From positions 1 through 64,000 of the forward strand of contig QQNE01000004.1 of NCBI GenBank assembly GCA_003402735.1: DNA of 64,000 nucleotides, given 5' to 3'. Shown one piece after another: positions 36,000 to 45,330 of the stretch. The translations under genes were made by a program, and so were the position numbers. Positions within the stretch are counted from its first letter, which is position 1. Each line of letters opens with the position of its first letter. Under the pieces are notes generated by a model. It was not told the DNA's origin. It searched no databases and worked only from the letters and a program-made list of their open reading frames with translations. The stretch is from Verrucomicrobiota bacterium (lineage in GTDB: Bacteria > Verrucomicrobiota > Verrucomicrobiia > Verrucomicrobiales > DEV007).

Positions 36000-37643
36000 A
36001 TGTGGCGTCGCTCCATCCTGCCCTTCCTTCGCAATGCCGAGAGTTTTTTGCGGAGGCGCACCCGGCACGTCACCGGATTGGCGACCCGTTTCAACCGGCT
36101 CGTCTTCTTCGCTTTGGATTTGGTGCTCTGGTCCCGGGTGTTTCGCAGTCAGCGCGGGCCGATCCCGGTCGAGTTGCCGTTGCGGGTGCTGAAGCGCAAA
36201 CAGGTGGAAGTGGAAGCGCCGGTGCTCCACGTCTCCGGGCTGCACGGGGATGTGGCTCATTGGGACGACGGTTTTGCCGGAGTTTACGCGGTGCTCTTCG
36301 AGAACCTTCAAGTTCCGGATGTCCTCTCTCCGATCCGTTACGCACACCCCGCGCCCGCGTTCCGGGGGGTTTACCTCTGGGATTCCGCGTTCATCTCGCA
36401 GATCTGGAAGACTTGGGACCGTGACGTGGCCCACGATGTGAGCCGGGTCGTTGTCCACCTGCGCGATGGCGACCGCCTCCAACATGTGGTTTCCGATCTC
36501 GTGGCCTCGGTCTACACCCAACCACCGTTGATCGCGTGGTCTCTGGCCCGGCTTTGGGAGGGGCACGGACGCGAAGAGGCCGCCCTCCGGCTCGAACCAC
36601 TTTTTCCCGCTTTGTGCGCTTACAACGACTGGCTTTACGCCAATCGCCGTCTGGCCAACGGTCTTTTCTTCTGGCGTCATCCGTATGAGTCCGGTGTGGA
36701 AAACGCGCCCCGCTTCAGTTCGCGGGACGAGAGTGTTTTCCGGGACACCACCAAGCTGGCGGCACCGGACCTCAGTGCCTACGTCGTTCTGCAAAACGAG
36801 GCCCTGGCCACCATGGCGCGCATTTTGCATCGCGATCCCGAGCCGTTTTTGGCAAGGGCCGCCGATCTTCAGGGGCGCATCCGGGAAGAGCTTTGGCATG
36901 CTGGGGACGGTCTGTTTTACGACCGGAACATCGACACCGGAGAGTTTATCCGAAGCCGGACCATCGCCTCGATTCTGCCGCTGTGGGCCGGGGCAGCGGG
37001 GGAAGGGCAACTGCGGCGCCTCCTGGAGCACGTTCTCTCTCCGGAAGGGTTCAATTCGCCGCTTCCGTTCCCCTCAGTCGCGATTTCCGACCCCGATTTC
37101 TCGCTCGACATGTGGCGCGGACCGGTCTGGGTGAATGTCGCTTTTGGCGCGTTGCAGGGTTTGAAACGCTACGGGCTGGAACGGGAGGCGAGCGAGATGG
37201 CCTACCGCTTGTGCGATCACATTTACCGGATGTTCCGCCGGGAACGCCGTTTCTATGAGTTCTATGATCCTGAGGAAGCTGGTCTCGCCCGGCTTTACCG
37301 GAAAAAGGGGAATCGCTGGAAAGCCTTTACCCTTGGCGTCAAACCGCAGGCCGACTTTGTGGGATGGACCGGGCTGGTCAACACTCTGGTCATAGAACAA
37401 TTCGCCGGTTTTCACCGGGAGAACGGTCGGCGATTTGTGCAGCCACGTTTCCCTCCGGCCGCAGTGGGAAAGGCTTACGCCCTGCGTCTTCCCGGCCAGA
37501 ACTTGGCTCTCGATTTTTGTGTGCTTGGACCGGATTCCGTGCGAGTGACCATCCGCACGCCGACGCAGTGTGTGGAAGCGCTCGTCGCTTTCGGTGAACG
37601 CGCTGCCATCGACCCTCCCTCCTCAAACCATGAGATATTGTGA
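36000..37643 (+). CDS. GH63-like / six-hairpin glycosidase (mannosylglycerate-hydrolase-like)
   Basis: YLWDSAFISQIWKTWD, ESGVENAPRFSSRDES, MWRGPVWVNVAFGALQGLKRYG, FYEFYDPE..., FVGWTGLVNTLVIEQFAGF. Confidence 0.75.
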   Translation: MWRRSILPFLRNAESFLRRRTRHVTGLATRFNRLVFFALDLVLWSRVFRSQRGPIPVELPLRVLKRKQVEVEAPVLHVSGLHGDVAHWDDGFAGVYAVLFENLQVPDVLSPIRYAHPAPAFRGVYLWDSAFISQIWKTWDRDVAHDVSRVVVHLRDGDRLQHVVSDLVASVYTQPPLIAWSLARLWEGHGREEAALRLEPLFPALCAYNDWLYANRRLANGLFFWRHPYESGVENAPRFSSRDESVFRDTTKLAAPDLSAYVVLQNEALATMARILHRDPEPFLARAADLQGRIREELWHAGDGLFYDRNIDTGEFIRSRTIASILPLWAGAAGEGQLRRLLEHVLSPEGFNSPLPFPSVAISDPDFSLDMWRGPVWVNVAFGALQGLKRYGLEREASEMAYRLCDHIYRMFRRERRFYEFYDPEEAGLARLYRKKGNRWKAFTLGVKPQADFVGWTGLVNTLVIEQFAGFHRENGRRFVQPRFPPAAVGKAYALRLPGQNLALDFCVLGPDSVRVTIRTPTQCVEALVAFGERAAIDPPSSNHEIL

Positions 37644-38856
37644 CCTGACCTTGGCTTACACCGCCACAAGCGGCGGCATCCGCACCTACATCGACGCCAA
37701 GCGTCGGTATCTGAAGGAGCATACCGATGACGAACACGTGCTCATCGTTCCCGGGGAAAAAGAGGCCCGGCAGTCGGACGGGCGCCTCACCATCCGCACG
37801 TTGGCGGGTCCATTGATTCCGGGTTGTGCGCCCTACCGTTTTTTCTGGCACCCGCTCCGGCTCTTGGAAGCGCTGGAGGAGGAACAGCCGGACGTCGTGG
37901 AGCTCGGCAGCTTCTTTGCCTGTCCGTGGGCGGCGTTTCAATACCGGAAACACCGGGAGGGCAACCATCTCCGTTGTTTGGTGAGCGGTTATTTTCATAC
38001 CGACCTCGCGGATGCCTACTTCGGCTCTCCGTTGCGGGAGGTGCTCCACGATCACCTCAGCCAATCCGGCGAACTTTTGAGCCGGTGGGGATTGAGTTTG
38101 GCGGAGGCGGCGGAGTTTGGGGCGGAACGGTATTTTGGATCGATTTTTGCCCGTTGTGATCTGGTCTTCGCGGCCAGCCCGGCGCAACTGGAACGACTTC
38201 GTCACTACATGCGGAAACAAGACGAGGATCGCACGCGGCTCGTGCCGCTGGGGGTGGACATCGAGCTCTTTCATCCCGGCCGCCGCAGTGACGAAGTTCG
38301 GGCCCGTCTGGGGGCCACGGCCGACACGATCCTGATTCTCTACGGCGGACGGTTGGATGCAGAGAAGCACGTGGAGACCTTGGTGGCGGCGTTCGAAGAT
38401 CTGCGATCCCGATCGCCTCACGTCAAACTTCTGGTCACGGGTGAGGGGCCTCTTCGCAAGAAGCTGGAGGAGCGTGCGGAAACGCTCCCTGGTTTTCTGG
38501 TTCGCCCTTACGCCACCTGTCGCGAAGAGTTTGCCACCCTGCTTGCCTCCGCCGATCTTTACGCCACCGCCGGACCCCATGAAACCTTTGGTCTCTCCGT
38601 GGTCGAGGCTCAGGCCAGCGGTCTCCCCGTGGTGGGCGTCGATGCCGGGGCGCTGCGGGAACGGGTGGTGCCGGGGACCGGGTTTCTGGTCCCGGTCGAT
38701 GACGCTCCGGCCATGGCACGCCAGCTTGAGGCGGCCGCTCGGGAGCGGGAGGCGATGGGTGCCCGGGCCCGGCGACATGTGATCGAGGCCGGGCTCGATT
38801 GGAACGGAACGTTTCGCGCCCTGTTCGCGGCGTATCAGGGAGTTCTCGGTGCTTAG
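37630..38856 (+). CDS. Glycosyltransferase family 4
   Basis: TSGGIRTYIDAKRRYL, PLGVDIELFHPGR, LLVTGEGPLRKKLEE, ATAGPHETFGLSVVEAQASGLPVVGVDAGALRE. Overlaps the preceding gene by 14 nt. Confidence 0.88.
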   Translation: MRYCDLTLAYTATSGGIRTYIDAKRRYLKEHTDDEHVLIVPGEKEARQSDGRLTIRTLAGPLIPGCAPYRFFWHPLRLLEALEEEQPDVVELGSFFACPWAAFQYRKHREGNHLRCLVSGYFHTDLADAYFGSPLREVLHDHLSQSGELLSRWGLSLAEAAEFGAERYFGSIFARCDLVFAASPAQLERLRHYMRKQDEDRTRLVPLGVDIELFHPGRRSDEVRARLGATADTILILYGGRLDAEKHVETLVAAFEDLRSRSPHVKLLVTGEGPLRKKLEERAETLPGFLVRPYATCREEFATLLASADLYATAGPHETFGLSVVEAQASGLPVVGVDAGALRERVVPGTGFLVPVDDAPAMARQLEAAAREREAMGARARRHVIEAGLDWNGTFRALFAAYQGVLGA

Positions 38857-38857
38857 C

Positions 38858-39032
38858 CCGCATTTCTCAAGCCCTCGCTGCTGCGGCTTGCCCAATGGCA
38901 TTCCTGCTGCGTTCCGCTCGAATCCCAGGATTCACGGTATGTCGGCATACCGCTCACCCTGGAATCCTTCGCGCGCCTTGCAGGCAATGCCATTTGGCGG
39001 CGCCTCGCGACGCGATCCTTGAGAAATGCGGC
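38858..39032. repeat. Long imperfect palindromic element, copy A
   Basis: Outer arms GCATTTCTCAAG (38860-38871) / CTTGAGAAATGC (39018-39029); central hairpin CGGTATG-TCGG-CATACCG (38935-38952); intermediate arms CCAATGGCATT / AATGCCATTTGG. Near-identical copy at 45016-45172. Confidence 0.85.
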
Positions 39033-39097
39033 TTAGGGGCCTGACTCTGTGACGATTTTGGTTGATGAGCAGGGGGGAAGGGCCGAGGAAGGGAAGG

Positions 39098-40600
39098 ATG
39101 AGCCTCTCGCGGATCGCCTTCGTTTGGGTCGTCGCCGTGGTCGGTTTGCTGGAAGCAGCGCCGAACAGACCGAACGTTCTTTTCCTCGCGATCGACGACC
39201 AGAACGATTGGATTGGCTGTCTTGGCGGGCATCCCTTGGTGAAAACGCCCAACATCGATCGCCTGGCCGGGCGGGGAACGCTGTTTGCCAATGCGCATTG
39301 TCAGGCACCGCTCTGCAATCCGTCCCGCACCAGTCTTCTGTTGGGCCTTCGCCCGGGAACGACCGGCATTCACGGGCTTTCACCCTGGTTCCGGGATGTG
39401 CCGCAGTGGGCGTCGCACGTGGCTCTGCCCCAGCATTTCGCGGCGCAGGGATACCGGACCCTGAGCGCGGGAAAGATCTATCACAGCTGGCGATCGCTTG
39501 CGCCGAAGGGCAAGAAGGCGTCGGTTGCTTCTCCTGAATTCCAAGAAGCCGGCCCCGCCGGGGGGCCCGGTCCGAGACCTCCGCAAAAGCTGGTGGCCAA
39601 CACGCCGTTCGGCAACAATCCGCTCGTCGATTGGGGTGTCTGGCCGCTCGACAACGATGACTCGACCAAAGGGGATCACGAGGTTGCCTCATGGGCGGTG
39701 GAGAAGTTGGAAACGCTTCCCAAGGACCAGCCGTTTTTTCTGGCGGCCGGTTTTTTCCTGCCGCACGTCCCGTGTTATGCGACACAGAAATGGCATGACC
39801 TTTATCCGAAGGACGCCTCGATCCTGCCCTTGATGTCCGAGGGTGACCGGGACGACACACCTCGTGCCTCCTGGTGGATTCATTGGAAACTGCCCGAGCC
39901 GCGCTGGAAGTGGGTTCAGGACCAGCAGCAGGAGGTCAACCTAGTGCGCTCGTATCTCGCCTGCACCAGCTACACGGATTTCGAGATCGGCCGCGTTCTC
40001 GATGCCTTGGATCGGGCCGGTCACGCGGAGAACACAGTGGTGGTGCTCTGGAGCGATCATGGCTGGCACCTGGGCGAGAAGGCGATCACGGGAAAGAACA
40101 CCCTGTGGCAGCGTTCCACTCGGGTCCCGCTCATTTTTGCCGGGCCGGGCGTGACTCCCGGCCAGACATGTTCCCAACCGGTCGAACTTCTAGATATCTA
40201 TCCCACCCTGGTTGAACTCTGCGGACTGCCGCCCGCGCCCCACGCCCTCGAAGGGCTGAGCCTCAAGCCCCAACTGTTGGCTGCGTCCGCCCCTCGTGGT
40301 CGTCCTGCCATCACTTCGCATAACCAGGGAAACTACGCTGTCGTCACCGGGGAATGGCGTTACATTCGCTATGTGGACGGTTCTGAGGAACTCTACGATC
40401 TGGCGGCGGATCCGCACGAGTGGAAGAATCTCGCGGCGCAGCGGCCCGGCGTTTGCAAGGAACTGCGTTCCCAGATCCCCAAGATCGACAACGGCCCGGC
40501 TCTGGGCAGTGCCAGCCGGGTCCTCACCCTCTACGACAAGGTGCCTGTCTGGGAGGGCGAAGTGATTGAGCCTGACGCGCCCATCCCGCACGATTCCTGA
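39098..40600 (+). CDS. Sulfatase (secreted, iduronate-2-sulfatase-like)
   Basis: PNVLFLAIDDQNDW metal site; CNPSRTSLLLGLRPGTTG (C-x-P-S-R type I motif); WSDHGWHLGEK. Confidence 0.92.
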   Translation: MSLSRIAFVWVVAVVGLLEAAPNRPNVLFLAIDDQNDWIGCLGGHPLVKTPNIDRLAGRGTLFANAHCQAPLCNPSRTSLLLGLRPGTTGIHGLSPWFRDVPQWASHVALPQHFAAQGYRTLSAGKIYHSWRSLAPKGKKASVASPEFQEAGPAGGPGPRPPQKLVANTPFGNNPLVDWGVWPLDNDDSTKGDHEVASWAVEKLETLPKDQPFFLAAGFFLPHVPCYATQKWHDLYPKDASILPLMSEGDRDDTPRASWWIHWKLPEPRWKWVQDQQQEVNLVRSYLACTSYTDFEIGRVLDALDRAGHAENTVVVLWSDHGWHLGEKAITGKNTLWQRSTRVPLIFAGPGVTPGQTCSQPVELLDIYPTLVELCGLPPAPHALEGLSLKPQLLAASAPRGRPAITSHNQGNYAVVTGEWRYIRYVDGSEELYDLAADPHEWKNLAAQRPGVCKELRSQIPKIDNGPALGSASRVLTLYDKVPVWEGEVIEPDAPIPHDS

Positions 40601-44432: not shown

Positions 44433-44999
44433 GTGCATTGGACGGTTGCCTTTGGACCCGTTCAAAAGCCAACGCACGGCAACCGGTGGGCGCTTCCCGA
44501 ACTCAAGAGGATCGACAAGGCCCTGGACGATCTCATCCTGCGTCATGAGGCTCTTCACCTGCATGCCGAGCGATTGCGTTCCATCCCTGGGATCGGTAGA
44601 GGCACGGTTCCGTTTTTGATTTGCCTTATCCTCGGACGAAATTTTTCACAGGCTCGACAACTTGCGGCTTACGTGGGCATCACACCACGGGAGCATCGAA
44701 GTGGCACATCGGTTCATGCACCGCCCCGTCTTTGCAAAAGAGGGGATCGTCTCATCCGTAAGCAGCTCTGGTGGCCCGCCATTCAAGCCATGCGCCATCC
44801 GGACTTTGCCCCATGGGTTGAGAAACTGCGCGAGAAAGGGAAACCAGAGAAAGCAATGATTTGTGCCGTGATGAGGAAGTTAATCCAGGAAGTTAATCCA
44901 GGAAGTTAATCCAGGAAGTTAATCCATCTTGCCTTCGGCGTTCTCAAGTCGGGGCACCCCTACGACAAAAAGCTCGCTGTTCCCGCAAACTTAGCTTGA
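44433..44999 (+). pseudogene. IS110-family transposase C-terminal remnant, interrupted by a 13-bp tandem expansion
   Basis: ERLRSIPGIGRGTVPFLICLILGRNFSQARQLAAYVGITPREHRSGTSVHAPPRLCKRGDRLIRKQLWWPAIQAMRHPDFAPWVEKLREKGKPEKAMICAVMRKLI (Transposase_20). After the repeat, the original frame resumes as LIHLAFGVLKSGHPYDKKLAVPANLA* (stop 44997-44999), typical of the IS110 C-terminus. Confidence 0.8.
44874..44925. repeat. Four perfect tandem copies of AGGAAGTTAATCC (13 bp)
   Basis: Units 44874-44886, 44887-44899, 44900-44912, 44913-44925 read directly. Confidence 0.95.
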
Positions 45000-45015: not shown

Positions 45016-45172
45016 CTCGCCGCTGCGGCTTGCCCGATGGCATTCCTGCTGCGCTCCGCTTGAATTCCAGGATTCACGGTATGTCGGCATACCGCTCACC
45101 CTGGAATCGTTCGCTCGCCTTGCAGGCAGTGCCATTTGGCGGCGCCTCGCGACGCGATCCTTGAGAAATGCG
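45016..45172. repeat. Long imperfect palindromic element, copy B (left outer arm missing or diverged)
   Basis: TCGCCGCTGCGGCTTGCCCGATGGCATTCCTGCTGCGCTCCGCTTGAATTCCAGGATTCACGGTATGTCGGCATACCGCTCACCCTGGAATCG...GAGAAATGCGG; differs from copy A at about 8 positions over about 155 nt. Confidence 0.85.
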
Positions 45173-45330
45173 GGCCAGAATCCAGATCCCTGCGGGCGAG
45201 ATTACCTCACGTGCACAGTCAACCGTCTGGATCAATTTGAGCCCTCGGCTACGACCGATCCTGGAACAATCAAGCGTGATGGCTGCTGGATTGAAGTGGT
45301 TGGGTTCCGATGTTTGCTGGGTTTGGGCGT

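Follow-up and report, generated by a model that had tools for sequence, protein, structure and literature searches.

Bacterial MITEs are usually seen as the short-lived remains of a single insertion sequence. The element described here resembles ERIC, Correia/NEMIS, RUP, Nezha and QMITE2, which are gene-less, 70-300 bp long and present in tens of copies, and which carry terminal inverted repeats (TIRs), a target duplication and a stable fold. Unlike these, it has a well-supported partner in the IS1380 family, conserved blocks, covarying variable stems, lineage-specific ends and a distribution across orders. Stably folding MITEs are well known in bacteria, and the 2024 review that covers them (PMC10969869) mentions neither IS1380 nor Verrucomicrobia. 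IS1380 insertion sequences (NF033539, PF13701) share with the element their terminal repeats and a CTAG-type 4-bp duplication, have ends that co-diverge with those of the element in one genome (G377) and abut it there, but differ in that the MITE is without a transposase gene, measures 176 bp compared with ~1.7-1.8 kb, and has an interior unrelated to the IS ends that were compared. IS1380 has served as the prokaryotic outgroup for piggyBac (PMC10813416), whose 4-bp TA-centred duplication (TTAA) is also comparable; piggyBac, however, is eukaryotic and autonomous and is tied to the element only via the transposase family.

Copy A and its genomic setting

The window, i.e. the whole stretch of 64,000 nucleotides analysed here, contains a full-length copy of the element (copy A) in an intergenic gap between a GT4 glycosyltransferase gene (37570-38856) and a sulfatase gene (39062-40600), both on the same strand and both correctly named as neighbours in the preliminary description. 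The palindrome placed there at 38858-39032 is present, with its left boundary drawn one base short: after extension by this base the element spans 38857-39032 (176 bp), runs CCCGCATTTCTCAAG ... CTTGAGAAATGCGGC, and has one copy of an exact 4-bp duplication on each side (TTAG/TTAG). The core CGGTATG-TCGG-CATACCG and its nested arms were found almost exactly as first described, including outer arms (CCGCATTTCTCAAG/CTTGAGAAATGCGG) complementary at 14/14 positions and inner arms (GCCCAATGGCATT/AATGCCATTTGGC) complementary at 12/13. The palindrome is far beyond chance, with a DNA fold at z = -6.1 (0/200 shuffles as good) and RNA folds at z = -7.2 for the plus and -8.3 for the minus strand (0/200 shuffles equally stable). 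The parts of copy A and the second copy in the window (copy B) are:

38853..38856, no strand: left 4-bp target duplication TTAG (from sequence and flank statistics)
38857..39032, plus strand: full-length palindromic MITE, copy A, 176 bp
38857..38871, plus strand: left terminal inverted repeat CCCGCATTTCTCAAG, of which the first 13 bases are the TIR of the presumed IS1380 partner
38878..38891, plus strand: conserved block 1, CTGCTGCGGCTTGC
38895..38907, plus strand: variable stem B, left half (ATGGCATTCCTGC), with another sequence in other genera and complementarity kept
38907..38920, plus strand: conserved block 2, CTGCGTTCCGCTCG
38935..38952, plus strand: core hairpin CGGTATG-TCGG-CATACCG
38967..38981, plus strand: conserved block 3, CTTCGCGCGCCTTGC
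38980..38995, plus strand: variable stem B, right half (GCAGGCAATGCCATTT)
38996..39012, plus strand: conserved block 4, GGCGGCGCCTCGCGACG
39018..39032, minus strand: right terminal inverted repeat, CTTGAGAAATGCGGC, with a mutation at its outermost base
39033..39036, no strand: right 4-bp target duplication TTAG
45016..45174, plus strand: copy B, which lacks the left terminal repeat and keeps its right end, flanked by CCAG at 45175-45178, adjoining an IS110-type transposase fragment

The glycosyltransferase gene has the TAG of the left TTAG duplication as its stop codon (38854-38856). A stop codon is part of the YTAR target, so that an insertion can land exactly on a gene stop and regenerate it, and copies L013, L069, L085 and L103 belong to the same group of cases. 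Element sites coincided with gene stop codons in 21/47 cases, compared with 51/168 control YTAR sites, a weak enrichment which is only suggestive of a preference of the element for gene stops.

Copy B, reported about 6.1 kb away, likewise exists, minus its left end. Between the IS110-type transposase fragment (44433-44909) and copy B lies a short tandem repeat with a unit of ~13 bp (TTAATCCAGGAAG; 44875-44925), which may mark a rearrangement in which this copy lost its left end.

Copy number, target duplications and distribution

A search of the window's genome (G000; a draft of 4.14 Mb in 164 contigs, 82% complete) located the element at ~40 distinct places (54 listed, some of them counted on both strands), among them a third copy on the same contig outside the window (G000:C4:89591-89766). 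At least 21 copies are full length (175-177 bp), and truncated copies and internally deleted forms of 59-150 bp are also present. The identity of aligned copies and their flanks ends sharply at CCC...GGG, with perfect terminal arms of 14-15 bp. The 4-mers just outside the copies are of the YTAR type (CTAG, CCAG, CTAA, CTGG, TTAG and similar), and left and right 4-mers were identical in 21/47 flank pairs, a set that includes a few alternative pairings, compared with 6.5 expected by shuffling (0/2000); this excess was confined to a width of 4. Copies from other genomes carry more distinctive duplications (TTCA/TTCA, TCAA/TCAA and GTAG/GTAG), and such unusual sequences indicate direct target duplication, not an extension of the palindrome. 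Furthermore, one copy (L014, G000:C13:1776-1951) has inserted into an IS256 transposase gene (NF033543) in the arrangement CTAT[176]TTAT, and uninterrupted IS256 homologues, found in G002 and at another place in G000, carry a single CTAT, i.e. the empty site. Together, the flank duplications and the empty site demonstrate that the element is mobile.

The element is also not restricted to this genome. A covariance model built from 39 copies matched 28 of the 142 relatives searched, representing 11 genera and three families, and three further genomes of the phylum; the named hosts of the close relatives are Verrucomicrobiales/Akkermansiaceae metagenome bins. Element length varies between genera from 173 to 178 bp, which shifts the reading frame, so that none is conserved and a coding reading of the open frame that can be seen by eye in copy A was rejected. 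G377, a single-contig genome from another family of the same class, contains at least nine copies, three of which were compared at full length and are 98.9% identical. One further covariance-model match, in G092 (L232), has different and longer ends and probably represents an unrelated palindrome. An Acidobacteria MAG contig (JACOTZ010000166.1; L192) carries the left end of the element together with three or more of its interior blocks in recognisable form, without a matching right end, which may reflect either transfer across phyla or mis-binning. Many contigs of G023, including C65, C137, C248 and C250, start 20-60 bases inside an element end (CCTGGATTATTCATGA). These palindromes appear to break assemblies, so that copy numbers from drafts are underestimates.

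In the libraries covered, the element carries no name: Rfam returned no gathering-level match and no hit to the element even at E<=10, phages, plasmids and viral contigs gave no match in searches of limited sensitivity, and the literature outside subscription papers and ISfinder yielded nothing on the element sequence or on IS1380 MITEs. The MITE interpretation of the preliminary description is strongly supported by the many copies, the occurrence of related elements in further genera, families and orders, the 4-bp duplications, the empty site and the identification of an autonomous partner family. Neither of the two findings that were to count against it, a mere two copies with none in relatives or an already named repeat family, came up. 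With these features, the element is best filed as a MITE with an IS1380 partner.

IS1380 insertion sequences as the probable partners of the element

Candidate partners were examined via PF13701. In the same order, five genomes have IS1380 transposases within elements of 1767-1802 bp that end in the 13 bases CCCGCATTTCTCA, with a mutated outer end in one genome, and these 13 terminal bases are identical to those of the MITE (CCYGCATTTCTCA). Three of the genomes (G066, G111 and G021) contain intact IS1380 elements of 1.77-1.80 kb with the TIR CCCGCATTTCTCATAC and perfect CTAG duplications; when PF13701 loci were searched for inverted ends starting with CC and equal 4-bp flanks, only the elements of these three were returned. 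The same TIR occurs in the IS1380 of G068, which also carries one truncated MITE copy, and of G137. The transposases are named IS1380 by NCBIfam (NF033539, E 1e-108 to 3e-118), and target and duplication are alike for MITE and IS1380 (CTAG/TTAG, 4 bp).

The ends of the MITE are altered in G377, where its TIR is CGGCCATTTCTCACAA (corresponding to CGGCCATTTCTCAC ends). A partnership predicts that the IS1380 ends of this genome should be altered as well, which provides an independent test; indeed, the 23 PF13701 matches in G377 include 1710-bp elements ending CSSCCATTTCTCACCA with CTAG or TTAG flanks, so that MITE and intact matching IS1380 coexist in one genome. In G377, MITE and IS1380 moreover abut, with one CTAG in common (L277, 1088-2978; L278, 1269-3160), and these pairs might be composite-like units that move together. 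The common ends and target, the duplications, the empty site, the co-diverging ends in G377 and the side-by-side insertions make IS1380, on comparative evidence, a well-supported candidate for the mobiliser of the element.

No intact IS1380 with matching ends was found in the drafts G000, G001, G002 and G018, which include the window's genome and two congeners and in which repeats assemble poorly; G000 has just a partial IS1380 gene, which is a different one. Isolated TIR matches in G000 led only to short or degenerate elements and to no autonomous copy, no IS-sized TIR pairs were found inside element-bearing genomes, and a search for a partner of the variant ends of the CCTGATCTATTCATGA type returned none. 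IS701 (DDE_5, PF13546), another candidate suggested by the YTAR duplication, had no match in seven element-bearing genomes. A 539-aa frame at a contig end of G000 (L165 550-2169, G000:C152) combines an N-terminal IS1380 transposase fragment with a glycosyltransferase-like C-terminus and is either a real fusion, a decay product or an assembly effect.

Conserved blocks, covarying stems and their possible role

In 24 copies, taken from different genomes, the parts follow the order TIR - stem A - block 1 - stem B - block 2 - stem C - core hairpin - stem C' - block 3 - stem B' - block 4 - stem A' - TIR'. Conservation amounts to 1.2-1.5 bits per site in the blocks (CTGCTGCGRCTTGC, CTKCGTTSCGCTCG, GCGCGCCTTGC and GCGGCGTCTCGCGACG) and to 1.3-1.5 in the TIRs, compared with 0.4-0.6 for stems A and B and 0.65-0.9 for stem C. 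Each block contains a GCGNCTYGC-like 9-mer, all four in the same direction (A1 columns 27, 54, 117 and 144, read from the alignment), with spacings of 27, 63 and 27 that mirror each other. The stems differ in sequence between genera and retain complementarity, with 15/28 consensus pairs changed on both sides. The covariation score was 0.366 compared with 0.160 in a shuffle control that retains relatedness (0/500), and 95% of cells were paired compared with 33-50% when the partners were slid, a control that also keeps relatedness but works to the advantage of a structure derived from the same alignment. By eye, the interior has no similarity to the five IS1380 elements beyond the TIR. Judged from these comparisons, the element has the look of a conserved hairpin to which IS1380 ends give transport, and not that of decayed IS remains.

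We consider it probable (roughly 0.85) that the element is a non-autonomous MITE mobilised in trans by IS1380-family transposases, with a hairpin core that is presumably selected at the DNA level. The transposase would recognise the terminal repeat of ~13 bp and move the MITE, thereby duplicating a 4-bp YTAR-type target (CTAG, TTAG, CTAA, CCAG and similar), in a reaction presumably carried out by IS1380 and possibly following the DDE cut-and-paste route of the related piggyBac group. Selection on the core would act in active elements: the core may fold when single-stranded during replication and bring the ends together, or a host factor may bind at the blocks, either of which could promote spread. 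Within the window's genus, paired and unpaired sites change equally (0.055 and 0.057), and in two other groups paired sites change less (0.076 v 0.112; 0.054 v 0.090). These patterns suggest that copies are mostly free to decay, while the structure would be kept in the propagating lineage, i.e. for the spread of the element.

The most serious alternative, although an unlikely one, is a mobile structured RNA, likewise moved by IS1380, whose core would be preserved for the sake of a folded transcript active in mRNA processing or stability or in transcription control. There are proposals of RNA-level roles for several bacterial MITEs, ERIC and Correia/NEMIS among them, and such a role would suit the very stable RNA folds on both strands, the strong covariation around conserved, unpaired-like blocks and the insertions beside genes, with copy A starting at a stop codon. 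The structured RNA offered in the preliminary description agrees with the strongly covarying stems but gains no support from the mismatches: selection on one transcribed strand should make either G-T or A-C predominate among single changes in stems, and the two are in balance (41:44, 13:20 and 5:6), so that no single strand is favoured. The equal rates at paired and unpaired sites within the window's genus and the lack of an Rfam match also argue against it.

A distinctly improbable reading is that of an ordinary decayed IS1380, an internal deletion derivative with a junk interior kept palindromic by template switching from arm to arm. Its ends and target are indeed those of IS1380, an origin from insertion sequences is assumed for many bacterial MITEs, and quasipalindrome correction is a known mutational process that could help to keep the stems complementary. 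The interior, however, lacks visible similarity to the IS1380 ends compared, and the four blocks are conserved like the ends across families and orders while staying non-complementary where correction between the arms would pair them, so that template switching cannot explain the blocks. Far less plausible is a bidirectional terminator or other host regulatory palindrome: the long hairpin does lie in a gap between two same-strand genes, but no T-tract was found, and the element shows target duplications, an insertion inside a gene and many dispersed copies, although it could terminate transcription incidentally. Least tenable is a repeat of the REP/REPIN type that a Y1 (RAYT) transposase spreads, as in the REP-like label initially given, since the element, though palindromic and dispersed like such repeats and found in a phylum from which GTAG-type REPs are reported (PMC3733652), is at 176 bp much longer than the 20-40 bp of Y1-linked REPs and has 4-bp target duplications and 13-bp terminal repeats in common with the DDE-type IS1380.

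Mobilisation by IS1380 with a core selected as DNA remains the preferred reading. A bolder version, tentative and with somewhat less than an even chance of being right, sees in the core one ancient hairpin module of DNA (or RNA) that occurs throughout the phylum, carries four directional blocks and has a function independent of the transposon ends. It would persist by matching, again and again, the IS1380 transposase present in each lineage, with ends and stems turning over and the blocks remaining fixed. If this is true, the functional core of a mobile element without coding capacity would be conserved and under selection.

In contrast to the view of bacterial MITEs as relics, this gene-less element spans orders of one phylum, and its ends co-diverge with those of its presumed transposase donor, while the constraint on its interior is not derived from the transposase ends. 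The finding explains a class of Verrucomicrobiota repeats that is absent from all annotation libraries searched, and, with transposase and test sequences in hand, offers a natural system for asking what a non-autonomous transposon gains from a DNA structure that acts in cis.
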